Assembly (NCBI RefSeq): GCF_016522505.1
Contig: NZ_JAEHOH010000009.1
Location: forward strand, 1-64,000
Length of the DNA stretch: 64,000 nt
Direction of reading: 5' to 3'
DNA from: Leucobacter chromiisoli
GTDB taxonomy: Bacteria > Actinomycetota > Actinomycetes > Actinomycetales > Microbacteriaceae
Of this stretch, positions 29,504-55,329 are shown piece after piece (within the stretch, counting starts at the first letter, position 1; each line of letters begins with the position of its first letter). Both the position numbers and the translations under genes were made by a program. The notes under the pieces are model-generated. The model saw nothing but the letters and a program-made list of their open reading frames with translations, was not told where the DNA came from and made no database searches.

Positions 29504-29541
29504 GCAAAGGCGCGCAGGACTTGGCTTCGCACCTGTCTTCT

Positions 29542-38511: not shown

Positions 38512-38549
38512 ACGCAGAGCCGTTCACGAGAGAGACGAGGAGTTCCCCT

Positions 38550-39866
38550 ATGAATAAGAACGCGAAGAGCCCACTCGGGCGCCTTCGGTTCGTCGCGACA
38601 GGTCTGCTGGCAGCATCGGCGCTGACGCTCGTCGGCTGCGCAGGGCAGGGCGGTCCCGCCCCCGTCGAGGCGACGGGCGAGGGGGACATCCCCACCGATA
38701 CCGAGGCGACCGTGCGCGTGCTGCTCGAGACCGTACCCGATTCGGACATCGTCATCGACATGGTCGACGAGTTCAACGAGACCTACCCGAACATCACGGT
38801 CGACATCGAACAGCTCCCCTTCGATCAGATGCGCGACCGACTGATCGCGTCGTTCCAGGCCCCGGATCCCAACTACGACTTGATCGTCGTCGACAACCCT
38901 TGGATGGTCGACTTCGCGGAGGCCGGTTTCCTGCAGCCGCTCGACGCCCGCATCGATTCGACGTCGGACTACGATCCGGACGACTTCTTCGATCCGCTCG
39001 TCGACATCACGACCGTGGATGAGGCGCGGTACGCCGTGCCCTTCTACAACTACGCGCTCGGCTTCATCTATCGAACCGACCTGATGGAGGAGGCGGGAGC
39101 GGAGCCGCCGGAGACCCTCGACGAGCTGGTGTCGACCGTGCAGCAGTTGAACACCCCGGAACACGCGGGCATCGCCATGCAGCCGCAGCGCGGTTACAAG
39201 GTCTTCGAGGAGTGGGCCAACTGGCTGTTCGCGGCCGGCGGCTCGATCTACGACGATGAGGGCAACGTCACCCTCGACACCCCGGAGGCGGCGCACGCGC
39301 TGGAGGCGTACATCGAAGCCTACGAGACGGCGGCTCCCGCCAACAGCCTGAACTGGGCGGTGGACGACGCGGTGCGTTCGGTGTCGAGCGGCGGGTCCGC
39401 CTCGCTCATCACCTACAACTGGAACCTCCCGGTGCTGAACGACCCCGAGGGCGCCGCGGGCGACCTCGCGGGAGAGTTCGCGCTGGCTCCGATGCCCGGA
39501 GGCAAACAAGCGCTCGGCGCATGGAGCTGGGCGCTTCCGTCGAACTCGGCCGAGCCCGACGCGGCCTGGGCGTTCATCTCGTGGGTGACATCGCCGGAGA
39601 CCGACGTCGAGCGGGTGATCGCAGGAGGAGCGGCCATTCGCGAAAGCACTCTCGAGGAGCAGCGAGTACTCGATGAGGGATACGGAGCCGGCTACTACGA
39701 CGCGGTGAAGACGATCCTGTCCGACGCCTCGCCGTTGAGCGAGGGGCCGAGTGGCGAAGAATTCATCCAGGACGTTGGGACCGAGCTGAACAAGGCGGTT
39801 GCCGGGACGGCGAGCGTCGAAGAGGCTCTCGCCGCGGCCCAGGCGGCCGGTGAGCGTCTGGAGTGA
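38550..39866 (+). CDS. ABC sugar importer 1, substrate-binding lipoprotein
   Basis: A 438-residue family-1 (UgpB/MalE-like) binding protein. The signal peptide ends in LVGC (lipobox). The mature part has FNETYPNITVDIEQ, LPFDQMRDRLIASF, and the Trp- and Tyr-rich C-terminal lobe. The ATG at 38550 was chosen over upstream codons because GAGGAG lies 8 nt away and the signal peptide begins there. The next genes encode two permeases and an ATPase, making one complete importer. The expected ligand is a sugar, polyol or oligosaccharide. Confidence 0.9.
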   Translation: MNKNAKSPLGRLRFVATGLLAASALTLVGCAGQGGPAPVEATGEGDIPTDTEATVRVLLETVPDSDIVIDMVDEFNETYPNITVDIEQLPFDQMRDRLIASFQAPDPNYDLIVVDNPWMVDFAEAGFLQPLDARIDSTSDYDPDDFFDPLVDITTVDEARYAVPFYNYALGFIYRTDLMEEAGAEPPETLDELVSTVQQLNTPEHAGIAMQPQRGYKVFEEWANWLFAAGGSIYDDEGNVTLDTPEAAHALEAYIEAYETAAPANSLNWAVDDAVRSVSSGGSASLITYNWNLPVLNDPEGAAGDLAGEFALAPMPGGKQALGAWSWALPSNSAEPDAAWAFISWVTSPETDVERVIAGGAAIRESTLEEQRVLDEGYGAGYYDAVKTILSDASPLSEGPSGEEFIQDVGTELNKAVAGTASVEEALAAAQAAGERLE

Positions 39867-39870
39867 TCGG

Positions 39871-40791
39871 ATGAGCGCTCCATCGGCTCCCTCGACGGTC
39901 GCGATCAAGGTCGGGACCGCGCGTGTCAGGGTACGGCCGAACCGTTTCTCCAGGGGGATGCTCGCCCCGCTCCTGATCGTGATCGGTTTCGTGGTCGGGT
40001 TCCCCCTGGTGTACGCCGGGTACCTGAGCTTCACCGACTACCGGCTGACGGATCGGGGAACACCCGACCTCGTGTGGTTCGACAGTTATATCGGCGCACT
40101 CACGAACCCTTCGTTCTGGCAGGCGTTCGGTACCACCGCGACCTATCTCGTGATCGCCGTCACCGGGGAGCTCGTGCTCGGGTTGTTCATCGCGATGGCG
40201 CTGCAGAAGCAGCGGTGGGCGAAGGATCTCACCCGCGCTCTGCTGCTGGCGCCGATGTTCATCACGCCGATCGCGGTCGGCCTCACGTTCCGCTTCCTGC
40301 TCAACGACCAACTGGGGGCGGTGCCCGAGCTCTTGAGCCGGATCGGCGTGAGCTACGACTTCCTCGGCTCGGGCAAGGCGCTCATCACCCTCGCCTTCAT
40401 CGACATGTGGCAATGGACGCCGTTCATGGTGCTGTTGCTGCTCGCCGGATTGGAATCGCTGCCGAAGGCACCCCTCGAGGCGGCCCGGGTCGATGGCGCG
40501 AGCTGGTGGTACACCTTCCGGCGAGTGATGCTTCCGCTGCTGTCGCCCGTGCTCGTGATCGCCGTGCTGCTGCGCGCGCTCGATGCGATGAAGGTCTTCG
40601 AATACGTCTACGCGACCACAAGAGGCGGGCCGGGCGAGGAGACGCAGACGCTGCAGTATTTCACCTATCAGACGGGCATCCAGTTCTTCCGCCTGGGTTC
40701 CGCGAGCGCGATGGCGTTCATCGTGCTCGCGGTGGTGCTGACCGTGATCGTGGTGATCTACCGCAGGATGGAAAGGAGTCGGGAGCAATGA
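39871..40791 (+). CDS. ABC sugar importer 1, permease A
   Basis: A 306-residue permease with about six transmembrane helices. The inner-loop EAA motif reads EAARVDGASWWYTFRRVMLPLL, the point that contacts the ATPase. It belongs to the UgpA/MalF type. The ATG at 39871 has GGAG 8 nt upstream, 4 nt after the previous stop. The next permease gene overlaps by 4 bp. Confidence 0.92.
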   Translation: MSAPSAPSTVAIKVGTARVRVRPNRFSRGMLAPLLIVIGFVVGFPLVYAGYLSFTDYRLTDRGTPDLVWFDSYIGALTNPSFWQAFGTTATYLVIAVTGELVLGLFIAMALQKQRWAKDLTRALLLAPMFITPIAVGLTFRFLLNDQLGAVPELLSRIGVSYDFLGSGKALITLAFIDMWQWTPFMVLLLLAGLESLPKAPLEAARVDGASWWYTFRRVMLPLLSPVLVIAVLLRALDAMKVFEYVYATTRGGPGEETQTLQYFTYQTGIQFFRLGSASAMAFIVLAVVLTVIVVIYRRMERSREQ

Positions 40792-41606
40792 ATCGTTCAG
40801 CCGCAATGACGACGCTCCGCTCGGTGTTCTTGTGGATCGCGGTCGCCGCCGTCCTGTTCCCGTTGCTGTGGGTCCTTCTGGCCAGCTTCAAGACGGCTGT
40901 GCAGCTCAACGACCCCACGGCGCTGCTGTTCTCTCCGACCCTCGACAACTGGACGCGGGTGCTGTTCGCCTCGGAGATCCTGCCATCGGCCGGGCGCAGC
41001 TTCGCGGTCGCTGCCATCGCCGTGATCGTCAGCCTGCTCGTCGGCGCTCCGGGCGCATATGTCATCGCGAAGTACCGTACCGGCGGCACGGCGACACGGT
41101 TCGGGATCCTCGCCTCGCAGGTGTTGCCGCCGGCCGTGCTCGTGTTCCCCTTCCTGACGATGGCCTACTCGCTGCGGATGACGGATACCCTGCTGCCGGT
41201 CATCATGGCGCACCTGAGCATCGTCCTGCCGGTTGTGACCTGGTTCCTGATCGGCTTCTTCAGCGCGGTGCCCGACTCTCTGGAGGAGCAGGCGCGGGTC
41301 GACGGCTACAGTCGCTTTGCGGCGTTCCGCAAGGTCGTCGTGCCGCAGGTCTACCCGGGCATCGGGGCGGCCGCGATCTTCGGCTTCACGTTGTCGTGGA
41401 ACGACATGTTCTACGGGCTGATCCTCGCGCCGGGGAATGCCGCGATCCTGCCGGTGACCATCGCGGGCTTCAATACCTTCCGCGGAGTGGAGCTCGGCTC
41501 CATGAGCGCGGCCATCATCGTCGCCGTCGTACCCGTGGTCATCGCCAGCTTCTTCATTCAGCGTCGTCTGGTGCAGGGCATCAGCGGTGGCGCCGTCAAA
41601 GCATAG
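40788..41606 (+). CDS. ABC sugar importer 1, permease B
   Basis: A 272-residue MalG/UgpE-type permease. It has six helices and the EAA motif EEQARVDGYSRFAAFRKVVVPQV. It starts within the stop of permease A (ATGA). Its C-terminus QGISGGAVKA matches the MalG-type ending QGLTxGAVKG, which reaches into the transport core. It pairs with permease A. Confidence 0.92.
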   Translation: MNRSAAMTTLRSVFLWIAVAAVLFPLLWVLLASFKTAVQLNDPTALLFSPTLDNWTRVLFASEILPSAGRSFAVAAIAVIVSLLVGAPGAYVIAKYRTGGTATRFGILASQVLPPAVLVFPFLTMAYSLRMTDTLLPVIMAHLSIVLPVVTWFLIGFFSAVPDSLEEQARVDGYSRFAAFRKVVVPQVYPGIGAAAIFGFTLSWNDMFYGLILAPGNAAILPVTIAGFNTFRGVELGSMSAAIIVAVVPVVIASFFIQRRLVQGISGGAVKA

Positions 41607-41618
41607 AAAGGGCCGATC

Positions 41619-42689
41619 GTGGCCGAAGTGATTTTTGAGAACGTCCGCAAGGTCTACGGCGAGCACGAGATCGTCTCCGACTTGAACCTGACGCTGCCAG
41701 ATGGGAGCTTCACGGTGCTGGTGGGGCCGTCCGGGTGCGGGAAGTCGACCTCACTGCGCATGCTCGCGGGCCTGGAGCCCATCACCTCGGGCCGGATCCT
41801 CGTCGGTGGAAAAGATGTCACCGCGAAGGAGCCGAAGGAACGGGACATCTCGATGGTGTTCCAGAACTACGCGCTCTACCCGCACTTGACCGTGCGCGAG
41901 AACATCGCCTTCCCGCTTCGCGCGAACAAGACGCTCGGCAAGCAGGAGATCTCCGCCCGCGTGGACGAGGTCGCGCAGACCCTGGGTCTCGCATCGCTCG
42001 CGGACCGGCGTCCGAAGGACCTGAGCGGCGGCCAACAGCAGCGGGTCGCGATCGGCCGGGCGATCGTGCGTCAGCCCTCGGCCTTCCTCTTCGACGAACC
42101 GCTCAGCAACCTTGATGCGAAGCTGCGCGTCGAGACGCGCACCGAGCTCCTGCAGCTCCAGCGCCGTCTCGGGGTGACCTCGCTGTACGTCACCCACGAT
42201 CAGGAGGAGGCGATGACGCTCTCGGATCGGATGGTCGTGATGCGGGACGGCGTCATCGCCCAGGAAGGCATCCCGAGCGAGGTCTACGCGCGCCCGCGAT
42301 CGGTCTTCGTGGCGACGTTCGTCGGCAGTCCGAAGATGAACATTCTGCGCGGTCGTGTCGCCGAGGGAGTGTTCGACGAGGAGCGAGGTGCGGTGCGTCT
42401 GCCCGTGGAGCGAGCGGGCGAGGGGGAGATCGTCCTGGGGGTGCGTCCTGACGACCTGCTGGTGACACCCGCCGCGGCGCCCTCGGGGGTGCGCGTCGAA
42501 CTGATCGAACTGCTCGGCCCGCGAGCCATCGTCACTCTCGACGCGAACGGAGTGCAGCTGCGCAGCGTGTTGGAGGCGGACGCGCTGAGCGGTGTCGGTG
42601 AAGGGGCCGAGGTGGAGCTGGCGATCCGGCCGGGCTCGGCGCACGTCTTCGATCCCGAGACGGAGGACCGCCTCGAAGCGGGCCGATGA
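41619..42689 (+). CDS. ABC sugar importer 1, ATPase (MsmK/UgpC type)
   Basis: A 356-residue ATPase. Walker A GPSGCGKST, Q-loop VFQNYALYPHLTV, signature LSGGQQQRVAIGRA, Walker B AFLFDEPLSNLDAKLR, H-loop YVTHDQEEA. A C-terminal TOBE-like regulatory domain follows (GVRPDDLLV), as in MalK. GTG at 41619 is preceded by AAAGGG. It drives importer 1; in actinobacteria one such ATPase often serves several sugar permeases, but here it is inside the operon. Confidence 0.93.
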   Translation: MAEVIFENVRKVYGEHEIVSDLNLTLPDGSFTVLVGPSGCGKSTSLRMLAGLEPITSGRILVGGKDVTAKEPKERDISMVFQNYALYPHLTVRENIAFPLRANKTLGKQEISARVDEVAQTLGLASLADRRPKDLSGGQQQRVAIGRAIVRQPSAFLFDEPLSNLDAKLRVETRTELLQLQRRLGVTSLYVTHDQEEAMTLSDRMVVMRDGVIAQEGIPSEVYARPRSVFVATFVGSPKMNILRGRVAEGVFDEERGAVRLPVERAGEGEIVLGVRPDDLLVTPAAAPSGVRVELIELLGPRAIVTLDANGVQLRSVLEADALSGVGEGAEVELAIRPGSAHVFDPETEDRLEAGR

Positions 42690-42786: not shown

Positions 42787-43524
42787 ATGGTCGCAGAGGC
42801 ACTCAGCGTGACGAGATTGGGAAAGAAGTTCGGCGCAGTGAGAGCGCTGAGAGACGTGAACCTCAGCGTGGAAGCGGGGGAGATCGTCGCGCTGCTCGGA
42901 GACAACGGGGCCGGCAAGTCGACCCTGATGAACATCATCTGCGGCTCCGACAGCGCCGACGAGGGTGAGATCAGGGTGAGCGGGGAACCGCTCGAGAGTC
43001 TGACGGATGCGAATAGGCTCGGCGTCGGCGTGGTCTACCAGGATCTGGCCCTCGCTCCCCACCTCTCAGTGGCCGAGAACATGTTCCTCGGTAGCGAGAA
43101 GAAGCGGCGTGTCGGTCCGTTCACCGTGCTCGATCGACGGGGAATGGCCGCTGAAGCCGAGGCCGCGGTGGGGGAGCTCGGTATCTCCACGCTGCGGAAC
43201 GTGCAGTTGGCGGTGGCAAGACTGTCGGGTGGTCAGCGACAGGTGCTCGCAGTGGCTCGCGCGATCAAGCGCGCCAGCAGTTTCATCCTCTTGGACGAGC
43301 CGACCGCTGCCCTGGGTCCCAAACAAGTGGACATCGTCCTCGACGCCATCCGGGCGGCGAAGGCCCAGGGTCTCGGCGTCATTCTCGTGTCGCACGACAT
43401 CCCGAGCGTCTTGAAACTGGCCGATCGCGTGGTGATCCTGCGGCACGGCACGGTTGCACTCGATCGCAAGCCCGAGGGCATGTCCGTGGCAGACGTGATG
43501 ACCGCAATGGTCGGGGAGGAGTGA
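42787..43524 (+). CDS. ABC sugar importer 2, single-domain ATPase (RbsA-like)
   Basis: A 245-residue ATPase. Walker A GDNGAGKST, Q-loop VYQDLALAPHLSV, signature LSGGQRQVLAVARA, Walker B FILLDEPTAALGPKQ, H-loop VSHD. Sequence and motif style are those of ribose/xylose-type ATPases, but those usually have two fused ABC domains of about 500 residues; here there is one. AAAGGA precedes the ATG. It belongs with the following permease and binding protein. Confidence 0.9.
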   Translation: MVAEALSVTRLGKKFGAVRALRDVNLSVEAGEIVALLGDNGAGKSTLMNIICGSDSADEGEIRVSGEPLESLTDANRLGVGVVYQDLALAPHLSVAENMFLGSEKKRRVGPFTVLDRRGMAAEAEAAVGELGISTLRNVQLAVARLSGGQRQVLAVARAIKRASSFILLDEPTAALGPKQVDIVLDAIRAAKAQGLGVILVSHDIPSVLKLADRVVILRHGTVALDRKPEGMSVADVMTAMVGEE

Positions 43525-43529
43525 GGCGC

Positions 43530-44561
43530 ATGAACGCACTGACCGGAAACATCGAGGTGGAGACCGGAACCGCGAGCAGCCGGATGCTCAAGCGGGTGCT
43601 CTCCTCGAGGCCGTTCCAGATTCTCGCCGTCGAGATCGTGCTCGTCGTGATCTTCTTCAACCTGTCCGGGGGTTCGTTTCTGAACTCCATGAACATCCGA
43701 GGCATGCTCATCACCGCCTCCCAGGTGCTGCTGCTCGCGGTCGCGCAGGCGATTCTCATGTCGGCGGGACACATCGACATCTCGCAGGGCGCTGTACTCA
43801 TCTTCGCCTCGGTCATCGCGGGCAAACTCATCCTCGCGGTTCAGGGATCAGCGCCCCTGCCGCTACTCCTGCTGCTCGGTCTCCTCGCAGCGGTCCTCGC
43901 AGGATCGCTGGTGGGGATCGTGAACGGTCTCATGGTGGGAGTCGTGGGGATCAACGCCCTCGTCGTGACGCTCGCCATGCTCGGCATCGCGACCGGTGTC
44001 TCCCAGGTCATCACCGGCGGGGTGAACCTCACGGGTCTTCCCCCCGGCTTGCAGAGCGCGTTCGGTGGAGTGACTTTCGGCGTGCTGCCGCTCCCGATCA
44101 TCGTCAGTCTGGTCGTGATCCTCGGCATCTGGGCCCTGTTCCACTTCACGAGTTGGGGTACCCACGTGCTCGCGATGGGATCGAACCAGCGCGCCGCCCA
44201 CCGCGTCGGGATCCGGACGATGCGGAACACGATTGGCGTGTTCGTCCTCTCCTCGGCTCTTGCGGGCCTCGCCGGCTTCGTAGACCTCGCCCGGTATTCG
44301 ACGACGAACATCTCGGGCCACACGAACGACTCGCTCGCCGCGATCGCCGCCGCACTCATCGGTGGCACGCTGCTCACGGGCGGCCGCATCAACTTCCTCG
44401 GGGCGGTCCTCGGCGCCTTCCTCGCGATCATCCTGCAGTCGGGCTTGGTGATCATCAACCTCTCGCCGTTCTACCAGACCATCGCGATCGGGATCATGCT
44501 GCTGGTCGCGGTGAGCCTCGACCGCTCCAACCGCCTGCGCAGATCCGGCGGCGACGGATAA
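43530..44561 (+). CDS. ABC sugar importer 2, permease (RbsC-like)
   Basis: A 343-residue permease with about 10 hydrophobic helices in the BPD_transp_2 (RbsC) layout. Conserved parts include AGHIDISQGAV, GLMVGVVGINALVVTLAMLGI and AALIGGTLLTGGRINFLGAVLGAF. The ATG at 43530 was chosen because GGAGGAG precedes it at a proper distance; the GTG at 43521 lies too close to the binding site. It would form a homodimer with the single-domain ATPase. Confidence 0.92.
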   Translation: MNALTGNIEVETGTASSRMLKRVLSSRPFQILAVEIVLVVIFFNLSGGSFLNSMNIRGMLITASQVLLLAVAQAILMSAGHIDISQGAVLIFASVIAGKLILAVQGSAPLPLLLLLGLLAAVLAGSLVGIVNGLMVGVVGINALVVTLAMLGIATGVSQVITGGVNLTGLPPGLQSAFGGVTFGVLPLPIIVSLVVILGIWALFHFTSWGTHVLAMGSNQRAAHRVGIRTMRNTIGVFVLSSALAGLAGFVDLARYSTTNISGHTNDSLAAIAAALIGGTLLTGGRINFLGAVLGAFLAIILQSGLVIINLSPFYQTIAIGIMLLVAVSLDRSNRLRRSGGDG

Positions 44562-44605
44562 CCGTCGACGACTTCAATCACACATTCACTACAAAGGAGT
44601 AAACG

Positions 44606-45619
44606 ATGTCGAAGAAAATCCCTCAGCGTTACGGCTGGACGATCATGGCTGCGGTCTCCGCAGGCGCGCTTGCACTCAGCGGATGCAGCGGAACGAGCGA
44701 AGACGGCGGTGGGGAGCAGAGCGATCTCCGTGTCGCAATGGTCACCCCCGAGAGCACGGGTGAGTACTACGGCGCGATGTACTGCGGTGCGCAGGCCGCC
44801 GCCGACGAACAGGGAGTCGAACTGGACATCCAGGGCACTCCTGAGGTGACCGTCGAAGCCGAGATGCAGGTGCTGCAGTCGGTGTTGGCGACCGAGCCGG
44901 ACGGCATGCTCCTGACGGTCTGGGACACCGAATCCTTCAACAGTGTCATGGCCGAGTACACGTCGCTCGGGCACCCGGTCGTCATGCCCGACTCCTTCAT
45001 GTCCAGTGAGGATTTCTTGCAGAGCATCCGTACCGACAGCTACCAATCGTCCTATGATGCCGCACTGGAAGTGATCGAGGCGCACGGCATCACCGAGGGC
45101 AAAGTGCTCATCAACACCGACTCACCGGGCAACGCGATCCAGAGTGCTCGCGCCGAAGGCTTCCGCGACGCGATCGAGAAGGAGACCGACCTCGAGACGC
45201 TGGAATTCCAGTACGTCGGAGGCGATTCGGCGAAGGCTTCTTCGGCGGTGACGTCGGCGGCCGCAGGCAACGACGACCTTGCCATCGTGTACTCCACGAA
45301 CATCGGCGCGGGTACCGGTTCTGCGAACGGGATCACGACCTCCGGTGCCGAGATCGTGCACGTCGGATACGACGCCTCCCCTGCTCAGGTGGAGCAGCTC
45401 AAGAGCGGGGAGTACGACGCCCTCATCGCTCAGAGCCCCTACCAGATGGGGTACGACGCGATGAACCTCATCTCCGAGGTGTTGAAGGAGGAGCAGAGCG
45501 CCGACGATGTGGACGAGCAGACGGTCTTCTCGCCGTGGGCGTTGCTGACCGCGGACAATATCGACGATCCCGAGAACGGGGCGTTCATCTACACCTCTGA
45601 CTGCTCGCAGGCGGGCTGA
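44606..45619 (+). CDS. ABC sugar importer 2, substrate-binding lipoprotein (RbsB-like)
   Basis: A 337-residue periplasmic-binding-protein type 1 lipoprotein. The lipobox LSGC follows a hydrophobic helix. Typical elements are RVAMVTPESTGEYYGAMYCG, IVHVGYDASPAQVEQLKSGEYDALIAQSPYQMGYDAM. AAAGGAG precedes the ATG. It binds a monosaccharide- or polyol-like ligand for importer 2. The presence of two importers in one operon suggests that related or consecutive substrates enter separately. Confidence 0.92.
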   Translation: MSKKIPQRYGWTIMAAVSAGALALSGCSGTSEDGGGEQSDLRVAMVTPESTGEYYGAMYCGAQAAADEQGVELDIQGTPEVTVEAEMQVLQSVLATEPDGMLLTVWDTESFNSVMAEYTSLGHPVVMPDSFMSSEDFLQSIRTDSYQSSYDAALEVIEAHGITEGKVLINTDSPGNAIQSARAEGFRDAIEKETDLETLEFQYVGGDSAKASSAVTSAAAGNDDLAIVYSTNIGAGTGSANGITTSGAEIVHVGYDASPAQVEQLKSGEYDALIAQSPYQMGYDAMNLISEVLKEEQSADDVDEQTVFSPWALLTADNIDDPENGAFIYTSDCSQAG

Positions 45620-45690
45620 CCGTTGCTCATCCGGTGTCGGGCCCGGTTTCGGGTTCCGACACCGCCGACCCGGAGAGGAGCCTCGTACGG

Positions 45691-47592
45691 ATGGGCCCAG
45701 AGAGAACAGCCGCGGAGCGCAGGGTGGACGCGCTCAGGCGAGTGGATGCGCTGGATCGCCGCGGCCCGGCCCTCGGCGCAGTGCCCGTGCTGAATCCGGA
45801 CTTCCTCGCGGAGGTCGGCCCGGGCCCGCTCTCCGGACGGGTGTGCACGTTCAAAGACTCCTTCGCGGTCGCCGGGCTTCCTCTCGCCGCCGGTTCACCG
45901 GCGCTCGAGCACCTCGTCGGGGGCCGGAACGCCACGGTGGTCGAGCGCGTGCGAGGTGCCGGCGCCGGCGTGCTCGGCAAGACGAACATGCCTCCCGTCG
46001 CGATCGGTGGCGGGCAACCCGGTCTCTACGGGCGTACGCGCAGTCCGTTCAATCCCGATTTCCTCGCGGCGGCCTGGCATTCGGGTTCCTCGATCGGATC
46101 CGGAGTCTCCGTGGCCGCGGGGTTCTGCGATTTCGGGATCGGCGAGGAGACGGTCTCCTCGGGGCGCTCGCCAGCCTCGAACAACGGCCTCGTCGCCTAC
46201 ACGCCGTCCTGGGGAGTGATCTCCAGCTCCGGCAACCTCCCGCTGCATCCGTACAGGGATGTCGTCGTTCCACACACCACCACCGTGCATGGCCTGCTCG
46301 AGATAGCGAAGCACCTCGTCGGCGAGGACGATCAGGATGCGTGGCACCGCCAGCGTGGCGTGGACGTATCAGCAGCGGGGGCGGTGATCGAGCGACTGCG
46401 AGAGGGCGTGCAGGCGCCGCCGCTGCAGGGCGTGCGCCTCGGCGTGCCGCACCTCTATGTCGGCGAGTCCGTCGGCGACGTCGCCGGGATCCCGATACGC
46501 CGCTCCATCCGGACGCTCTGGGAGAGAACCGAACAGCTGCTCCGGGAGGCAGGAGCCGAGGTGGTGCGGGTGAGGCTCCCGGTCGTCGAATCCTACGAGC
46601 GGAGAAGCGCGTCGTCAGCGAGCTTCGAGAGCCAGGGGTTTCTCCTGCCCGGCTGGACGGAGTTCGAACTCGGTCCGCTCATGACCTATGCCTGGACGCG
46701 CTTTCTCGATGCGTTCGCCGGGGGAGCGAGACTCGCCGACATCGCGCCTCACGCGGTGCGGCCCGTCTCGCCGTGGTCGACGGACGTGCGCGGCGAGTCC
46801 CTGAGGCATCCCGGGAGAGACGTGTTCGACTTCGCGGGCATCGTCTCAGGCGCGGCTCTGCCGGAGCGCGAGATTCTGCGTATCGCCGAGCCGGCCGTGC
46901 GCGCCTTGAACGAGGGGCGCACACGGATGTACGACGAGTGGTTGGACGCTCTCGGCCTCGATGCGGTGATCTTCCCGGCCAACGGGGATATCGGGCCGTG
47001 GGATGCCGACAGCAACCTCGGGGCGGCTGAGTTGGCCTGGAGGGACGGCGCCGTGTTCTCCCACGGCAACCATGTGCTCCGCCGCCTCGGGATACCTACG
47101 GTCACCGTTCCCATGGGCGTCGCGTCCGACATCGGCGTGCCCGTCGGTGCGACCCTCGCCGGACGGGCGTGGGGCGACGTTCGCCTGCTGGGCATCGCGG
47201 CGGCCCTCGAAGCGGTGCTTCCGCCTGCACCGGTTCCGGGCCTTCCCGATGTGGGCGCGGCGCCGCTCGCCCACGCGCAGGAGATCTGCTCCCCCGAGCA
47301 GGGCGAACCGGTGCGGAGGATCGAGGTGCGTGCCACAGCCGTGCAGCGGGAATCGTCGATCGAGATCTCGGTGGTGCACCCCTCCGACCGGGGCCCGGTC
47401 GGAGTGGAGCTTCTGGGGCAGTCGATGGAGGACGAGAGGATCCGCGTCGATCCCCGCGACTGGCCGACGCGGGCCAGTCCTCTGGTCATCGCGGTGTCCG
47501 CCGAGACCGGCGCAGCCGGTTTCTGCGAGATCGAGTTGGAGTTCACCGATGACACGGTGCTGTACGACGGAGCGGAGGGCTCGGAGAGATGA
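45691..47592 (+). CDS. Amidase-signature enzyme 1 (long form)
   Basis: A 633-residue amidase. The catalytic triad is K55 (CTFKDSF), a cis-serine in SGSS (about 131-134) and the nucleophile S157 in ETVSSGRSPAS. The signature is unusual: the second half reads EETVSSGR in place of TDTGGSIR, so the active-site loop differs. The protein carries an extra C-terminal part of about 120 residues beyond the usual 450-500, possibly a beta domain. The ATG at 45691 follows GAGAGGAG. It overlaps amidase 2 by 4 bp. Substrate: an amide, probably from the imported compound. Confidence 0.85.
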   Translation: MGPERTAAERRVDALRRVDALDRRGPALGAVPVLNPDFLAEVGPGPLSGRVCTFKDSFAVAGLPLAAGSPALEHLVGGRNATVVERVRGAGAGVLGKTNMPPVAIGGGQPGLYGRTRSPFNPDFLAAAWHSGSSIGSGVSVAAGFCDFGIGEETVSSGRSPASNNGLVAYTPSWGVISSSGNLPLHPYRDVVVPHTTTVHGLLEIAKHLVGEDDQDAWHRQRGVDVSAAGAVIERLREGVQAPPLQGVRLGVPHLYVGESVGDVAGIPIRRSIRTLWERTEQLLREAGAEVVRVRLPVVESYERRSASSASFESQGFLLPGWTEFELGPLMTYAWTRFLDAFAGGARLADIAPHAVRPVSPWSTDVRGESLRHPGRDVFDFAGIVSGAALPEREILRIAEPAVRALNEGRTRMYDEWLDALGLDAVIFPANGDIGPWDADSNLGAAELAWRDGAVFSHGNHVLRRLGIPTVTVPMGVASDIGVPVGATLAGRAWGDVRLLGIAAALEAVLPPAPVPGLPDVGAAPLAHAQEICSPEQGEPVRRIEVRATAVQRESSIEISVVHPSDRGPVGVELLGQSMEDERIRVDPRDWPTRASPLVIAVSAETGAAGFCEIELEFTDDTVLYDGAEGSER

Positions 47593-49025
47593 GGGACGAG
47601 ATGGACGTGAGAGAGCAACCGGGTGAGGCGCCGCTGATCTGGTGGTCCGCCGAGGACCTCAGAGACGCTATTGCGGAGGGAACGCTGACCGCCGAGGAGG
47701 TGATGAGCGCCTTCCTGGACCGGATCGATACCGTCAACGATGAGATCAATGTGCTGGTCTTCCAGCTACCGAGGGAGGAGTGCCTGGAACTGGCGAGAGA
47801 GGCTGACAGACGACGTGAGACCGGCGAAGCGCTCGGGCCTCTGCACGGGCTGCCGATCGCGGTGAAGGACCTCGTCGACGTTAGGGGTATGCCGACGTCG
47901 CAGGGATCCCGAGCATTCGCGAACGGGTCCCCGGTCGCCGCTGACGCGCCGCACGTGGGGCTCATGCGGGAGGCGGGAGCGCTCATCATCGGCAAGACGA
48001 ATTCCCCGGAGTTCGGCGTCGGCACGCTCACCTGGAATGACGTGTTCGGGATCACCCGCAATCCGTACGACACCTCCAGGCACGCCGGCGGATCCTCCGG
48101 AGGGGTCGCCGCCGTGGCTGCGGGTATGCTCCCGCTCTGCGACGGCTCGGATTCGGGCGGGAGCCTGCGGTACCCGGCGGCCTTCTGCAATGCGGTGGGG
48201 CTGCGCACAACCCCCGGGACGGTGCCCGGGACGTTCGGTGGCAACTCGTGGGATCCCCATTCGGTGTACGGGCCCATGGCGAGGAGCTGCAGCGACGCCG
48301 CGCTTCTGCTCGACGCGATGCGGGGTGCGCATCCTGCCGCTCCGCTCTCGCGCCTGGGCGAAGCACACGGCGCCGAGGGCGAGGAGCGAGGGCGGGCGAT
48401 CAGGCTCGCCTGGAGCGATGACCTCGGGGGGCTCCCGGTCTCTGCGGAGGTGCGGGAGACGCTGGCGGATGCCCGTCGGCGTCTCGTGGAAGCGGGAGTC
48501 CAGATCGTCGACGTGAATGTGGATCTCGACGGCGTGGACCGCGCGTGGGAGATCATCGAGCTCTTCGGCTGGTACAGCCTCCTCGGCGCAGATCCCCTGG
48601 AGAGGCCTGAGCTGTACCGCGACGATTTTCTGCGGAACGTGAGCGAAGCGGCGGACTTCACCTCCGACGACCTTGCGACTGCCTTCGCGCGCCGCTATCG
48701 GCTCTACACCCAGTTCGCAGCGCTGCTCGAGGACTTCGACGGCTTCGTTTGCCCCGCCACTCCCGTCGTGGCGCCTCCTGCCGAAGTGCTCTGGGTCGAC
48801 GAGGTGGACGGCGTCGAGTTCTCGCGTTACTTCGAGTGGCAGCGGCTGGCCTGCCGACTGACGATGACCGGGCATCCCGTCCTCGCGATGCCCGCCGGCT
48901 TCTCCGGCGGCCTGCCCGTGGGTATGCAGGTGGTGGGAAGCTACGGCGGTGACCGGGAGCTTCTCGCGCTTGGCAGTGCTCTGGAAGAAGTCCTCGGCAT
49001 GGGTCGCGTGCTGCCGCAACTGTAG
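47589..49025 (+). CDS. Amidase-signature enzyme 2
   Basis: A 478-residue amidase of standard length. Triad: K93 (IAVKDLVD), cis-serine in GGSSGG (167-172), nucleophile S192 (SDSGGSLRYPA). The sequence is canonical, close to aliphatic amidases and glutamyl-tRNA amidotransferase A-like hydrolases, but it stands alone without GatB/C. Cytoplasmic. The ATG overlaps the stop of amidase 1, so the two are made in equal amounts and may form a complex or act in series. Confidence 0.9.
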   Translation: MRDEMDVREQPGEAPLIWWSAEDLRDAIAEGTLTAEEVMSAFLDRIDTVNDEINVLVFQLPREECLELAREADRRRETGEALGPLHGLPIAVKDLVDVRGMPTSQGSRAFANGSPVAADAPHVGLMREAGALIIGKTNSPEFGVGTLTWNDVFGITRNPYDTSRHAGGSSGGVAAVAAGMLPLCDGSDSGGSLRYPAAFCNAVGLRTTPGTVPGTFGGNSWDPHSVYGPMARSCSDAALLLDAMRGAHPAAPLSRLGEAHGAEGEERGRAIRLAWSDDLGGLPVSAEVRETLADARRRLVEAGVQIVDVNVDLDGVDRAWEIIELFGWYSLLGADPLERPELYRDDFLRNVSEAADFTSDDLATAFARRYRLYTQFAALLEDFDGFVCPATPVVAPPAEVLWVDEVDGVEFSRYFEWQRLACRLTMTGHPVLAMPAGFSGGLPVGMQVVGSYGGDRELLALGSALEEVLGMGRVLPQL

Positions 49026-49066
49026 CGGCCGGGAAGAGACGGACAACGATGAAAGGCGGAGGGCAT

Positions 49067-51703
49067 ATGGCGGCGCACACGGAACGCAACAGGGAGGCGG
49101 AGGTCTACGAGCACTTCCTGCGGCGCGCACGGGATCGGTTCGGCGAACTGCTGACACCGGAGTTGATCGAGGAGCACCGGCGCGACCCTCTGGGCGAGAA
49201 ATCCCCTGCGCTGCTCCATCTGCTGGATTTCATGCGGCAAGCCCCCATCCCGGGCAAGTTGGCGGTCTACGCGATCAAACCGCGGGAGGAGTACCAGATC
49301 ATCCGGCTCTCCGGTGTGTCAGGCGTGCCCAACGACACGCGAGATCCGCGGCGTTTCGCAACGGAAGAGGAGGCGCTGCACGAGGTCTTCCTCCGCCGTC
49401 TCGGGGAGCTCGGACTCATCTCGCACGAGGAACCCGACCCGGCTGACCCCTCCTGGCCGGCCACGTCCGAGGCGCACGTCATCGGCTATACCGACCGCTT
49501 GGACGCGCGACCGGGGGAGTCGGTGGAGGTGTTCCTCTCGGCCGACCATCCGACAGAGGTGCGCGCGGAGCTGGTCTCACTCGGTTTCGGCGAGCCGACC
49601 GGCGAGGTCCGCGAGCGGGTGGTCAGCGATCTCGGAATCGTCCCGGTGCAGCCGCAGGAGACGGTCCTCGGATCCTCCGCGACGTCGGGGCGGCTCGGGG
49701 AGCTCTATGAAGACGCCGATGTCCTCGCGCTGACCGTCATGCCGACCGCGCCGCAACGGGATGGCCAGCTGATCGCCGGGCAGCGCGACGAGGCCGGCGA
49801 CGGCTGGGGCCTCCTGCTCTCCTCAGGACGGGTGCGCCTCAGCGTGTTCAAGGCCGGACGCGAGACCCCGGTGTGCGAATCCGAGGGACGGTTGGCCAGA
49901 GGGTTCTGGTACAGCATCGCGGTAGGGTTCGGCTCCTCGCGAGCTTCCATAGCGATTCGACCGGTGAGGTCGCGTGCGACGCTCGGGAACACGACTGCCG
50001 CGGACGTGGGAGAGACGCTCCGCGGAACAGCGGGAGCACGGCTGCTCCCCGAACCGCTGCACTTCGCGGCATGGCCCGACGTCGGCCTCCGGGCGGCGTT
50101 CGACGGCCGCATCGAAACTCCGTTCCTCGCCGAGGGGGCCGGACCCGAGGGTGCTGGAGCTGAAGAGGTCGCGGAGAGACGCGCGGCGCACGAGCACGCC
50201 CGCGATCTCCCCGCCGCACACGTCGTCTGGGATCCCGCGGCGTCGCTCGCATCGGGCGTTCTGCGGTCCCAGACCATCCCGGCCTTCCGCCGTAGTGACG
50301 CGGAGTGGGGGCCGGCACCCCAGTGGGACGCGCTCTGCCGGAATACGCCTACCTGGGGCGTGCGGTCGAGCTCCTGGGACACGACCGAAGAGGACTTTGC
50401 GCGGCGCCCGCAGCAGTGGGCGGCCGTCCACTTCCACAGTGACGATATCGACGACGCGGGATGGGACCGCGCGACGGTCGTCGAGCTCCCGGACGATCTC
50501 TCTTCGGGCGCGTACGCCGTGAGGCTGAGCGGAGCCGAGACCGAGACGGAACGACTCCCCCTGTTCGTCGAGCCGCTCCGTTCGGAGCGGACGGTCGCCG
50601 TGATCATTCCGACCGCCTCCTATCTGGCGTACGCGAATGATCACCCCGGCACCCAGGCGCAGATGGCCCAGGCCACTGCGAGCCGTACGCCCGTCCTGAT
50701 GGAGGGCGATCTGTTCATGCAGGATCACCCGGAACTGGGGCGCAGCTGCTACGACGAGCACCTGGATGGAACGGGAGTCGGCTTCGCCAGCCTGCGTCGG
50801 CCGCTGCTCAACATGCGGCCCACGCACCGTTACCACGTGGGCGCCTGGCAGCTGCCGGCGGACCTGCATCTGCTCTCCTGGCTGAACGACGAGGGCATCT
50901 CCTACGACGTGATTACCGATCACACCCTGCACAGGCTCGGCGCGGAGGCGCTCGATGGCTACGACGTCGTGATGACGACGAGCCACTCCGAGTACTACTC
51001 GACCAGAATGCTCGATGCGGTCGAGTCGTACATCGATGAGGGCGGGCGCTTCATGTACCTGGGCGCCAACGGTTTCTATTGGAGGGTCGCCTTCGACCCC
51101 GATCGGCCGTGGGTGATGGAGCTGCGTCGCGGGGAGAACGGCTCGCGGGCGTGGCAATCGAAGCCCGGCGAGCATTACCACGTCTTCACCGGCGAGCGCG
51201 GCGGCCTGTGGGCGAACCTCGGGCGAACCACGAACAGCGTGTTCGGCGTCGGATTCTCTGCGCAGGGCTTCGACGGCGCCGGCTGGTACCGGAAGCTCGA
51301 CGACGCGGAGGATCCGCGGGCGACCTTTATCTTCGAGGGGGTGGAGGCCGAGACCTTCGGGCACATCGGGGACACCGGTGGAGCTGCGGGGCAAGAGATC
51401 GACCGATACGATCTCGCGCTCGGCACGCCCGCGGACACGCTGCTGCTCGCGACCTCGGAAGGTCTGTCGGAGGGGTATCTCCGCACGGTGGAAGAAATCC
51501 ATTTCCTCGTCGCGGGAACCTCTGCGAACGTGGACCATCAGGTGCGCGCGGATATGACGTACTTCGTCAACTCCAGAGGTGGCGCGGTGTTCTCGACAGG
51601 ATCCATCGCCTGGAGCATGGCGCTGGGCGACGATCCCGGAGTGAGCCGCATCACGAGAAACGTGATCACCCGCTTCAACAGCCAGGAGGAACTGGAATGG
51701 TGA
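49067..51703 (+). CDS. Dimethylformamidase-family iron amidohydrolase, small and large subunits fused
   Basis: An 878-residue protein. N-terminal residues 10-120 resemble the small subunit of bacterial N,N-dimethylformamidase (FATEEEALHEVFLRRL is the best block); the rest is the large subunit. The large-subunit active site in this family is a mononuclear iron held by two Tyr and one carboxylate: here Y522 (SYLAYAND), Y562 (SCYDEH) and E642, next to H640 in SHSEYYS. Their spacing agrees with the family as I recall it. The ATG at 49067 follows GGAGGGC at 6 nt. Family members hydrolyse dialkylformamides; the natural substrate here is unknown. Fusion into one chain and location inside a sugar operon are both unusual. 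Confidence 0.82.
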   Translation: MAAHTERNREAEVYEHFLRRARDRFGELLTPELIEEHRRDPLGEKSPALLHLLDFMRQAPIPGKLAVYAIKPREEYQIIRLSGVSGVPNDTRDPRRFATEEEALHEVFLRRLGELGLISHEEPDPADPSWPATSEAHVIGYTDRLDARPGESVEVFLSADHPTEVRAELVSLGFGEPTGEVRERVVSDLGIVPVQPQETVLGSSATSGRLGELYEDADVLALTVMPTAPQRDGQLIAGQRDEAGDGWGLLLSSGRVRLSVFKAGRETPVCESEGRLARGFWYSIAVGFGSSRASIAIRPVRSRATLGNTTAADVGETLRGTAGARLLPEPLHFAAWPDVGLRAAFDGRIETPFLAEGAGPEGAGAEEVAERRAAHEHARDLPAAHVVWDPAASLASGVLRSQTIPAFRRSDAEWGPAPQWDALCRNTPTWGVRSSSWDTTEEDFARRPQQWAAVHFHSDDIDDAGWDRATVVELPDDLSSGAYAVRLSGAETETERLPLFVEPLRSERTVAVIIPTASYLAYANDHPGTQAQMAQATASRTPVLMEGDLFMQDHPELGRSCYDEHLDGTGVGFASLRRPLLNMRPTHRYHVGAWQLPADLHLLSWLNDEGISYDVITDHTLHRLGAEALDGYDVVMTTSHSEYYSTRMLDAVESYIDEGGRFMYLGANGFYWRVAFDPDRPWVMELRRGENGSRAWQSKPGEHYHVFTGERGGLWANLGRTTNSVFGVGFSAQGFDGAGWYRKLDDAEDPRATFIFEGVEAETFGHIGDTGGAAGQEIDRYDLALGTPADTLLLATSEGLSEGYLRTVEEIHFLVAGTSANVDHQVRADMTYFVNSRGGAVFSTGSIAWSMALGDDPGVSRITRNVITRFNSQEELEW

Positions 51704-52476
51704 CGACGAACGTGCTGGATGCGTTCCGGCTGGAGGGGCAGACGGCTCTCGTCACGGGGGCGAGTCGAGGCCTGGGGCTCGCCATGGCGCGGGCGCTCGG
51801 GGAGCTCGGCGCGACCGTCGTTCTGACGGCGCGCACTGGCCCGGCTGCTGAAGCCGCTGCCGCGCTTCTCGTGGCCGAAGGGATCGATGCGCACGGTCGA
51901 GTGCTGGAGGTGAGCGACCGGGATGATGTCGACCGCTGCGTGACGGACATCGAGGCCACCGTCGGCTATGTCGACGTGCTCGTCAACAACGCGGGCGTCT
52001 CGATCGGCAACGAAGCCTTCGACGTCACCGATGAGGAGTGGCGGACCGTGTTCGGCACGAACGTCGATGGGGTCTGGCACTGCAGCCGGCGAATCGCCCA
52101 CTCCATGCGTGACCAGGGCATCCGTGGCCGGATCGTGAACATGGGGTCGATCTCGGCGGAGATCGTGAACCGACCTCGGTGGCAGGCCGGTTACCTCGCT
52201 TCGAAAGCCGCCGTGCACCAACTCACCCGAGGACTGGCGGTCGAATGGGCGCCGCACGGCCTTCGTGTGAACGCGATCGCCCCCGGTTACTTCCTCACCG
52301 AGATGAGCCCCGTCGACCAACCGGAGTACTACGAGCACTGCATCGCTCCTACTCCGCTCAAGCGATGGGGAGAGCCCGTGGAGCTCGGCCCGGTCGTCGC
52401 GCTGCTCAGCAGTGAGGCGTCCGCGTTCATGACAGGTTCCGTCGTCACCATCGACGGTGGCTACACGCTGTTCTGA
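51697..52476 (+). CDS. Short-chain dehydrogenase/reductase 2
   Basis: A 259-residue classical SDR. Glycine motif TGASRGLGLAMA at about 20-31, NNAG near residue 96, catalytic YLASK. Ending VVTIDGGYTLF matches 2-deoxy-D-gluconate/KduD-like dehydrogenases. It overlaps the amidohydrolase end by 7 bp with GGAGGA upstream. With SDR 1 and the zinc enzyme, the operon has three alcohol dehydrogenases. Confidence 0.9.
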   Translation: MVTTNVLDAFRLEGQTALVTGASRGLGLAMARALGELGATVVLTARTGPAAEAAAALLVAEGIDAHGRVLEVSDRDDVDRCVTDIEATVGYVDVLVNNAGVSIGNEAFDVTDEEWRTVFGTNVDGVWHCSRRIAHSMRDQGIRGRIVNMGSISAEIVNRPRWQAGYLASKAAVHQLTRGLAVEWAPHGLRVNAIAPGYFLTEMSPVDQPEYYEHCIAPTPLKRWGEPVELGPVVALLSSEASAFMTGSVVTIDGGYTLF

Positions 52477-52485
52477 GGAGACGAC

Positions 52486-53523
52486 ATGCTCACGATGAAT
52501 GCGGCGCGGTATCACGGTCGGCGCGATATCCGCATCGAAAGGGTCCCGGTCCCGGAGCCCGCACAGGGCCAAGTCCGTCTCCGTGTCGCGTACAACGGCA
52601 TATGCGGGTCCGATCTCCATGAGTACTACGACGGTCCCATCTTCATGCCGGCGCAGGCGCATCCGCTCACCGGTCACCACCTCCCGGCGATCCTCGGACA
52701 CGAGTTCTCCGGAGTCGTCGACAAGATCGGACCGGGCTGCCCGGACGGAACCCCTGACGTCGGTCGACTGGTCGCCGTCAATCCGGTGCTGTCGTGCGGG
52801 GAGTGCGACCACTGCCGCTCTCATGAGGAGAATCGCTGTCGCGATGTCGCGATACTCGGAAACGCCGGTGGGCACGGCGGCCTCGCGGAGTACGTGATCA
52901 TCACCGCGGACCAGTTGATCCCGGTGCCGGACGGGGTGAGCGCGGAGGAGGCGGCGGTCGCCGAACCCTTGGCGGTGGCCGTCCACGGGGTGTCCAAGCT
53001 CTCATTGGCACCGGTTTCTACCGCGCTGGTGATCGGAGGCGGTCCCGTAGGTCTCGGATCGGCGATGGCGCTTCGCTCGGCCGGAGCCGAGACCATCCAC
53101 GTCGCTGAGCTTTCCGAGCGGCGACGCGAGTTGGTGGAGAGCCTCGGCTTCGACCTGCATGCCGACGGCGCAGGACAGGAGTACGACGTCGTGGTCGACT
53201 GCGCTGGCGCTCCGGCGACCCTAGCCATGGCTCTCGGCAGTCTGAGAGCCGGCGGACAGATCCTCGTCGTGGCGATGGCGGCGAGCGACATCCCCCTGTC
53301 GATCACCGGTCTCAACGTGAAAGAGGCCACGCTGCAGGGGACCCACCTCTATTCGACGGCCGATTTCCGAGTCGTACTGGAACGCTTCGCGGCCGGCGAG
53401 TACTCCGTTGATGGATGGGTCGAGACCGTGCCGCTGCGCGATCTCATCGACGAAGGATACGAGGCTCTGCGAGCCGGAGACCGGGTCAAAGTTCTGATCG
53501 ACCCCCACGAAGGAGAGAAATGA
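52486..53523 (+). CDS. Zinc-dependent alcohol/polyol dehydrogenase (butanediol/threonine DH type)
   Basis: A 345-residue medium-chain dehydrogenase. Catalytic zinc ligands lie in GICGSDLHEY (Cys) and ILGHEFSG (His, Glu), the structural zinc loop is CGECDHCRSHEENRC, and the cofactor fold is VIGGGPVGLGSAMA. The N-terminal part DGPIFMPAQAHPLTGHHLP is typical for (R,R)-butanediol dehydrogenase and related polyol enzymes. GAGGAGACGAC precedes the ATG. It probably oxidises a vicinal diol or polyol in the pathway. Confidence 0.9.
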   Translation: MLTMNAARYHGRRDIRIERVPVPEPAQGQVRLRVAYNGICGSDLHEYYDGPIFMPAQAHPLTGHHLPAILGHEFSGVVDKIGPGCPDGTPDVGRLVAVNPVLSCGECDHCRSHEENRCRDVAILGNAGGHGGLAEYVIITADQLIPVPDGVSAEEAAVAEPLAVAVHGVSKLSLAPVSTALVIGGGPVGLGSAMALRSAGAETIHVAELSERRRELVESLGFDLHADGAGQEYDVVVDCAGAPATLAMALGSLRAGGQILVVAMAASDIPLSITGLNVKEATLQGTHLYSTADFRVVLERFAAGEYSVDGWVETVPLRDLIDEGYEALRAGDRVKVLIDPHEGEK

Positions 53524-54422
53524 CTGAAATGCTACTCGGTGTCAACAACTGCTTCGCGGTGAAGAGGTGGGCGTCTCCTGACGCATGGCTGCGCGTCATC
53601 CGGGAGGATCTGGACCTGTCGCACTGCCAGTTCAGCCTCGATCTCCTTCCCCCAGGATTCGACCTGCCGTTCGCGCTGCGATATGCCGAGCACGTTCGCA
53701 CCGTGGCCGAACAGTGGGAGGTGACCATCCACAGCACCTTCACCGGTCTCGGCGCATATGGTGCGAGCCTGCTGATGGCCGATGAGCGCGAGGACCGCGA
53801 GCAGGCGGAACGCTGGTATCGCGGAGTCATCGACCTCACCGCCGCCATGGGTGCGACGATGACCGGTGGTCATATCGGCGCCGCTACCGTGCCGGCCTGG
53901 CAGAACGCGGGTGAGCGGCGCGAGCGGCGCCGGCAGATGATCGACGCGATGCACCGCCTGGCGGAGTACGCCGATGAGCGCGGACTCGTCGGGCTGACGT
54001 TCGAGAACCTCGCCGTCGAACGGGAGTACGGGCACACGATCGAGGAAGCGCAGCAGTTGGAGGAGGCGCTCGCGGGGACCGCTGTCCCATGGGTGCTCTG
54101 CTTAGATCTCGGACACCCCGCGGCGCTCACCACCGGTACCGGTAGCGACGACCCCACGAACTGGCTGCGCTCGGCTTGGCGGCACCAGCCGCTCCTCCAA
54201 CTGCAGCAGTCGCCTCGCGGGGCGGACCTCCACGGACCCTTCACCGCATCTACGAATGCCGAGGGGATCGTGCAGCGCGAGCCGGTCTTGACCGCGCTCG
54301 ATCAGGCTGAGTGGCAGTCGCCCGTCCACGCCTTTCTCGAAGTCATCCCCGCGCATGAAGCCGACGACCAGGTGGTGCTCGCCGACCTCGTTCACAGTGT
54401 CCGCTACTGGCGGGGCGCATGA
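53520..54422 (+). CDS. Sugar-phosphate isomerase/epimerase (TIM barrel, AP-endonuclease-2 superfamily)
   Basis: A 300-residue TIM-barrel enzyme. Likely metal ligands are the Glu in LTFENLA, Asp/His in CLDLGHPAAL, the His in ADLHGPF and the Glu in FLEVIPAHE, which follow the E-D-H-E pattern of xylose-isomerase-like epimerases. Such enzymes (for example EryC-type) interconvert tetrulose or ketose phosphates. The ATG overlaps the stop of the dehydrogenase (ATGA). It is the last structural gene before deoR. Confidence 0.8.
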   Translation: MTEMLLGVNNCFAVKRWASPDAWLRVIREDLDLSHCQFSLDLLPPGFDLPFALRYAEHVRTVAEQWEVTIHSTFTGLGAYGASLLMADEREDREQAERWYRGVIDLTAAMGATMTGGHIGAATVPAWQNAGERRERRRQMIDAMHRLAEYADERGLVGLTFENLAVEREYGHTIEEAQQLEEALAGTAVPWVLCLDLGHPAALTTGTGSDDPTNWLRSAWRHQPLLQLQQSPRGADLHGPFTASTNAEGIVQREPVLTALDQAEWQSPVHAFLEVIPAHEADDQVVLADLVHSVRYWRGA

Positions 54423-54546: not shown

Positions 54547-55329
54547 ATGAATGCGAACACGCGGAGATCATTGATCGAGGAGATGATTGCTCAGCAGGGC
54601 GAGGTCTCCCTGGTCGACCTCGCCGAGAAGTTCGGTGTCTCCGAGATGACCGTTCGCCGCGATCTCGACGTGCTCGAGGAAGACGGAGTGCTCCGCAAAG
54701 TCATGGGCGGAGCGATCTTCATCGGGGGGAAATCCACCGAGCCCTCCTTTCACGCACGCGCCGCAGCTGCGGCCGAGGAGAAACACCATCTTGCCGAGAT
54801 CGCTGTCGGCCTGTTGAAGCCACGGCAAACCGTGATCCTCGACAGCGGCAGCACAGTGCTCGCCGTGGCCAGAGAGATCAAAGGGAAAGGGCTCGGGTTG
54901 ACGGTCGTGACGCCGAGCGTGCTCGCCGCTGTAGAGCTTGCAGACGAGCCCGACACCACGGTTCTCGTTACGGGTGGTCGCTTGCGGCCGGGGGAGCTGT
55001 CTCTGATCGGTTCGGAGGCGGAGGACGCGTTCCTGCGTTACAACTGCGACGTCTACTTCATGGGAGTTGCGGGGGTCGACGCTGTTCGAGGTGCTTCGGA
55101 ATACCATCGTGAAGAAGGTGCGGTGAAGCGGTACGCCGCACGTTCTGCGGACCGGGTGATCGCGGTGGTGGATCAGAGCAAGCTCGGGAGGGTGCAGCTG
55201 ATCAACGTGGTCGATGCTGCAGATATCGACGCGGTGGTGACGGATGCGCCCGAGGACCATCCGACGGTGATGCAGCTGCGAGAGTCCGGGGTCGTCGTTC
55301 ACCGCACAGCTGCTCCCGGCGAAAAGTAA
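54547..55329 (+). CDS. DeoR-family sugar-responsive repressor
   Basis: A 260-residue regulator. The N-terminal helix-turn-helix contains VSLVDLAEKFGVSEMTVRRDLDVLEEDGVLRK; the C-terminal sensor domain has ILDSGSTVLAVAREI and VTGGRLRPGELSLIG, typical of DeoR sensors that bind phosphorylated sugars. It is probably the local repressor of the catabolic operon, relieved by a sugar phosphate made by the FGGY kinase. It appears to be leaderless. Confidence 0.93.
   Translation: MNANTRRSLIEEMIAQQGEVSLVDLAEKFGVSEMTVRRDLDVLEEDGVLRKVMGGAIFIGGKSTEPSFHARAAAAAEEKHHLAEIAVGLLKPRQTVILDSGSTVLAVAREIKGKGLGLTVVTPSVLAAVELADEPDTTVLVTGGRLRPGELSLIGSEAEDAFLRYNCDVYFMGVAGVDAVRGASEYHREEGAVKRYAARSADRVIAVVDQSKLGRVQLINVVDAADIDAVVTDAPEDHPTVMQLRESGVVVHRTAAPGEK

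Follow-up and report, generated by a model that had tools for sequence, protein, structure and literature searches.

A dimethylformamidase-type protein of Leucobacter chromiisoli with its small and large subunits joined in one chain

The stretch of Leucobacter chromiisoli DNA analysed here (64,000 nucleotides; hereafter the window) carries a cluster of forward strand genes. The first of these encodes an FGGY carbohydrate kinase (36248..37741; PF00370, PF02782). This is followed by a MalEFGK-type ABC importer consisting of a binding protein, permeases and an ATPase (38508..42689; PF01547, PF00528 and PF00005, with the second permease recognised by eye). A ribose-type ABC importer comes next (42787..45619; PF00005, PF02653, PF13407); the start of its ATPase gene is uncertain, the permease is encoded at 43521-44561 and the binding protein at 44606-45619. 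Two amidase-signature genes then precede the gene that is our subject. Amidase gene A encodes 652 amino acids (45634..47592; PF01425, E 9e-44) and amidase gene B 478 amino acids (47589..49025; PF01425, E 3e-82). Gene B overlaps gene A by 4 bases and stops 41 bases 5′ of the fused gene at 49067-51703. The end of the fused gene is overlapped, by 7 bases, by a gene for an SDR dehydrogenase (51697..52476; PF13561). Further downstream, on the same strand, are genes for a zinc-type alcohol/polyol dehydrogenase (52486..53523; PF08240, PF00107), a xylose-isomerase-like TIM barrel protein (53520..54422, scanned from 53517; PF01261, E 5e-12) and a DeoR-type regulator (54547..55329; PF00455, PF08220).

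Another SDR gene lies upstream, near the FGGY kinase and the importers. The opposite strand upstream carries an inositol-phosphatase-like gene and a BtpA/SgcQ family gene (35281-36096, reverse strand), which scores above its NCBIfam cut-off and adjoins the FGGY kinase gene. The first-pass annotation had placed the fused gene in the context of a sugar kinase and importers, and the Pfam matches to an FGGY kinase and two sugar-type ABC importers agree with this. NCBIfam matches for the kinase, dehydrogenase, isomerase and regulator neighbours fell below their cut-offs. Hence, no substrate can be named from these families. The gene for a TrwC-type relaxase (window 29521-33102; PF08751, E 8e-88) ends ~1.4 kb before the cluster. 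By eye, the first 33 kb of the window also contain genes for conjugation-like ATPases, a ParB-like protein, an IS30-like transposase, a copper-type ATPase and a multicopper oxidase. Because of the relaxase and conjugation-like genes, the cluster may adjoin a mobile element. No tRNA gene was found in the 64,000-nt window.

The fused gene (49067-51703, forward strand) is a single uninterrupted frame of 878 amino acids, and a ribosome-binding-site-like sequence, AGGCGGAGGG (49054..49063), is located just 5′ of its ATG. That the small and large subunits of a dimethylformamidase are here fused had been proposed from the sequence at the outset, and the proposal was upheld: residues 7-114 correspond to the small subunit of Paracoccus dimethylformamidase and, in the same frame, residues 138-874 to its large subunit. 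We assign residues 1-115 (49067..49411) to the small-subunit domain. Residues 116-137 (49412..49477) form a linker, as judged from the sequence and from model confidence, and residues 138-878 with the stop codon (49478..51703) make up the large-subunit part.

Characterised dimethylformamidases are usually two separate polypeptides, although membership of the Pfam family does not depend on this trait. The window protein does not share the trait, being encoded by one frame in which the linker has no internal start. Reading by eye, there is no in-frame ATG, GTG or TTG codon from residue 112 to residue 144. It is therefore unlikely that a separate large chain is made from a start within the linker. 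The fraction of G or C at third codon positions (GC3) is 0.83 in the small part, 0.86 in the linker and 0.84 in the large part, consistent with one coding gene. In the predicted model, confidence is ~61-90 across the three blocks of ten residues that span the linker. The small and large genes are adjacent or overlapping in many relatives, so a minor assembly or sequencing error could merge two such genes into one. As an account of the fusion in the window we find such an error barely credible, since the linker is in frame, rich in acidic residues and proline, and free of start codons. Furthermore, the identical small-large joint is found in the closest kin, in all three of their genomes.

The N-terminal domain was compared with the small subunit in several ways. 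In phmmer searches of PDB sequences, the small subunit 6lvb_B matched residues 7-114 of the whole protein (E 6e-10) and also matched residues 1-140 searched alone (E 4.2e-11). With a profile of the small subunit that was made from nine relatives and without the window protein itself, the window protein scored 106 bits (E 1e-29 against 177,635 sequences). When residues 1-137 were shuffled, the same profile reported none of 200 copies. The similarity of the N-terminal part to the small subunit, on which the first-pass annotation had staked its reading, is thus present. The window block FATEEEALHEVFLRRL aligns with FKTEEEAMHAVFLRRI, at the end of 6lvb_B. Neither Pfam nor NCBIfam had a matching small-subunit model for residues 1-140. 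Hence, this part of the protein is recognised only through 6lvb_B and relatives.

The large subunit 6lvb_A matched residues 138-874 with E 1.8e-122 (phmmer, PDB sequences). The sole Pfam match in the fused protein is the PF20254 DMFA2_C domain (residues 439-854; 50381..51628; E 2e-88), and nothing in NCBIfam matched. In the report on the Paracoccus enzyme (PMC7686228), iron is bound by Y399, Y440 and E521, mutant data mark H519 as essential and F693 narrows the pocket. The same report describes the large subunit as inactive without the small one, and proposes that the small subunit serves stabilisation and substrate entry. Alignments by phmmer and of large chains place Y522 (codon 50630..50632), Y562 (50750..50752) and E642 (50990..50992) of the window protein at the three ligands, and H640 (50984..50986) at H519, as the first-pass annotation had suggested. 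This Tyr/Tyr/Glu/His quartet is identical in 99 of the 99 aligned large chains, a set that includes the window protein and L023 and leaves out the triple fusions described below. The equivalent of N547 is kept in 95 of the 99 chains, among them the window protein (N668). Among the 133 columns of this alignment that are conserved at 85% or more, the window protein differs at 15. Departures adjoining the ligands include G517, replaced by T638, and P520, replaced by S641.

An AlphaFold2 model of the fused protein, made from a 60-row alignment, has a mean pLDDT of 87.5 and a pTM of 0.90. Its top Foldseek match is 6lvb_A (TM 0.89 by target length, 34% identity). In the same model Foldseek also finds 6lvb_B (TMt 0.81, rmsd 1.6 over 115 columns). 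Judging from the fold match to 6lvb_A, residues Y522, Y562 and E642 would be gathered in space. Taken together, the PF20254 match, the predicted 6lvb_A fold, the small domain and the Tyr/Tyr/Glu/His quartet indicate a protein of the dimethylformamidase type.

Fusion of the small and large parts is rare among relatives. A scan of genome contigs with the fused protein as single query found no relative, so far as that search is concerned. A profile scan, for which the full fused protein was aligned with large chains, yielded 591 confirmed relatives. We inspected the best 80 of these, ranked by similarity to the fused protein and so biased towards kin that bear the small domain. Three of the 80 loci are fused, 54 are split, ~15 have the small domain on the end of a permease and in 8 no small domain was found. 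A script based on ORF length had sorted the same best 80 of 591 into 51 split, 18 long-frame, 3 fused and 8 without a small domain. Three of the 18 long frames (L072, L074 and L097), and also L028, are likely frame artefacts, in which only the small domain matched, and were counted as split. The long ORF of L028 was also considered as an amidase-small fusion and dropped on inspection, as a likely artefact of frame. L031, which has no small gene, tells us little because the locus is at a contig edge. The three fused loci among the best 80 of 591 are from a Lautropia MAG (L054), Rhizobiales 2SD (L056) and a Rhodospirillaceae MAG (L061).

Surveys by taxon gave a similar picture. Matches were found in 4 of 54 genomes of the genus and in 14 of 299 genomes of the family; in both cases the N-terminal part was covered only in the window. 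Across the class, 108 of 394 genomes matched, and residues 1-878 were found in one frame only in the window. The small-domain profile matched 4 of 297 genomes of the order and 2 of 396 genomes of the phylum, the latter being the window and G491, where the pair is split. Since PF20254 occurs in 61 of the 396 genomes of the phylum, most PF20254 proteins of the phylum seem to be without this small domain. Among plasmids, 96 records had a match and eleven were inspected. The small gene is separate in 7 of the eleven and at an ABC permease end in 3 (L020, L022 and L026). Both forms of the small domain are present in an unannotated record (L025), and no small-large fusion was seen in these eleven records. 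We found no description of a fused dimethylformamidase in searches of listed open-licence papers.

Elsewhere, a branched-chain-type ABC permease carries the small domain at its C-terminus, and the gene for the large subunit lies just 3′. Examples are L020:6690-8348, L022:6696-8351 and L026:6693-8348. The same joint is present in L030, L032, L036, L037, L042, L059, L077, L088, L090, L092 and L107, and on longer open frames in L033, L041, L057 and L079. PF02653 was detected in 20 of the 24 permease-small proteins submitted to Pfam. Such a joint could tie the amidase to an importer. Two copies of the small domain precede one large gene in L025, L080 and L104; the first copy ends a long frame in L025 and L080, and in L104 the contig ends within the first frame. 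In Aminobacter niigataensis DMFA1 (L024:6090-7850), a gene for a flotillin-domain protein is directly 5′ of the small-large pair. The survey thus portrays the small domain as a mobile module, found alone, on the large chain or at the end of an ABC permease.

The closest kin of the window protein are single chains of 1306-1309 amino acids, in which an allophanate-hydrolase-like amidase is followed by the small and large parts. These triple fusions account for the other three matches of the small-domain profile in the order (G792, G831 and G857), all in one genus of a different family, where they were seen in 3 of 13 genomes. Pfam scans of two of the three (L115 and L116) identified the PF01425 amidase, the PF21986 allophanate hydrolase C-terminal domain (AH_C) and PF20254, and the small domain sits between the amidase/AH_C part and the PF20254 part. 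Allophanate hydrolase models give the amidase part its best scores, though these fall below the curated cut-offs, and the amidase motifs look intact by eye. Identity between the dimethylformamidase part and the window protein is 42-43% over 885-891 columns. In all three chains the equivalent of Y522 is Ala, the stretch containing Y562 is deleted and H640 is replaced by Arg. At the position of E642, L114 and L115 have Ser and L116 has Glu. By sequence, then, the iron site is largely lost in the triple fusions, and the loss of three of its residues from 3/3 of these kin suggests a lineage that tolerates loss of the site. The triple fusion (L114:3072-7823, L115:5879-9835 and L116:5497-9486) is followed by a DUF1349 gene, for which PF07081 was scanned in L115 and similar frames are present in L114 and L116. 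A gene for a phosphatidylethanolamine-binding protein is also nearby in these loci.

A quick maximum-likelihood tree was built from 95 large chains. In it, the window protein and the triple fusions form one clade (support 100) on a long stem of 1.1 changes per column, so the deeper placement of the group is unsure. In this and a second tree, the group is placed together with the enzyme of Paracoccus aminophilus and the permease-linked group. The fused state takes three changes on the tree of 95 chains: in the window and triple fusions, in L054 with L061, and in L056. Three independent gains are the simplest reading; alternatively, the history may be one of gain with losses.

The kin with depleted iron sites raise the main alternative, namely that the site in the window protein is itself vestigial or weak. 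In this case, the module would be turning into a structural or substrate-binding partner of the amidase-signature (Ser-Ser-Lys) amidases, and true amide cleavage in the window cluster would fall to amidases A and B. The placement of two amidase genes directly 5′ of the fused gene is in keeping with this, as are the divergence of the window protein at conserved columns and its well supported grouping with chains that carry an amidase and AH_C. We nevertheless judge it unlikely. The window protein retains the full catalytic quartet where its kin do not, a sign of selection on the site. Moreover, amidases A and B show no special closeness to the amidase of the triple fusions (~34-42% over 136-251 residues). 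This is similarity at the general family level, so the two arrangements are not orthologous. Pfam found neither the amidase nor the AH_C domain in the window's fused chain; its amidases are separate genes.

The reading that we favour, and hold to be probable, makes the window protein an iron amidase in a single chain, which would act on an imported amide within a sugar-type pathway. Against this reading count the depleted sites of the closest kin, the departures of the window protein from conserved columns and the long stem of its group. The fusion, the homology, the ligand residues and the predicted fold are described above; from these and the neighbouring genes we infer iron binding, activity, mode of assembly and class of substrate as follows. 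With the small subunit joined to the front of the large one, residues 1-115 would most likely take the position of the separate Paracoccus subunit, packed on the dimer interface and the catalytic domain. There, the small domain may hold the domains in place and shape the entrance. In the large part, a mononuclear Fe3+ would be bound by Y522, Y562 and E642, and H640 would help water to attack the carbonyl of a small-acyl amide. The inactivity of the large subunit without the small one, as given in PMC7686228, would provide a reason for joining the two. The likely job would be to free an amine or a sugar-like part from an imported amide, prior to sugar metabolism. This role is suggested by a cluster that combines two serine amidases with an FGGY kinase, importers and dehydrogenases.

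Split homologues also bear on the substrate. In 5 of 92 loci searched (L046, L047, L051, L075 and L108), an FGGY kinase homologue is encoded on the same strand 14-757 bases 5′ of the small domain. Because these five loci form one clade, their support for a sugar-like substrate is modest. Together with the neighbours of the fused gene, they make a sugar-like amide, as put forward in the first-pass annotation, plausible. A homologue of amidase B adjoins on the opposite strand in L047 and L051. Homologues of both BtpA and the FGGY kinase are near the dimethylformamidase pair in L075, L108 and L046.

If the sugar genes were mere neighbours, the protein could instead be a true formamide or dimethylformamide hydrolase for solvent breakdown. 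It does share a 42-row set (support 100) with the Paracoccus aminophilus enzyme, and has F813 in the place of F693, the residue that narrows the pocket according to PMC7686228. However, just 26 of the 99 rows have F at this place and it does not single out dimethylformamidases, and identity to the P. aminophilus large chain is ~37%. No formate or methylamine genes were seen among the neighbours scanned, and the fused gene is tightly spaced with amidases and dehydrogenases. Such a role is, on these grounds, improbable. A more speculative idea, which we put forward tentatively, joins the favoured single-chain iron amidase to the history of its kin. The lineage might be midway through a handover of amide cleavage from iron to serine, the welded module working with amidase-signature amidases on one sugar-derived amide. 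The iron site would have been kept in the window organism, and the module would be non-catalytic in the triple-domain machine of its kin.

Comparison with known systems sets the protein in context. N-acetyl-(R)-beta-phenylalanine acylase (PDB 8huy, 8i59, 8i5a) is homologous to the large part (E 1.4e-97 over residues 138-872, TMt 0.83-0.85), but no small-subunit chain of that enzyme was among the PDB matches. The fused proteins L054, L056 and L061 likewise have the small domain before the large part in one frame; their small domain is shorter and they occupy other branches of the tree. The triple fusions share the small-large joint of the window protein but have the additional N-terminal amidase and AH_C, and lack the equivalents of Y522, Y562 and H640 in 3/3 cases and of E642 in 2/3. 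These ligand-poor chains offer a direct contrast for the role of the module without the usual means of holding iron. Paracoccus N,N-dimethylformamidase (PDB 6lvb-6lve, 6lvv, 7w8j) has both subunits, the fold, the Tyr/Tyr/Glu ligands, the His and Asn547 (N668) in common with the window protein, which differs at 15/133 conserved columns. How the small subunit contributes to these iron amidases is not well understood. A natural single chain is a simple construct with which to test it, and spares the co-expression of two genes. Whereas the Paracoccus enzyme is made of two chains, the window protein has one: it is a single-chain form of a known kind of enzyme, the dimethylformamidase-type amidases.
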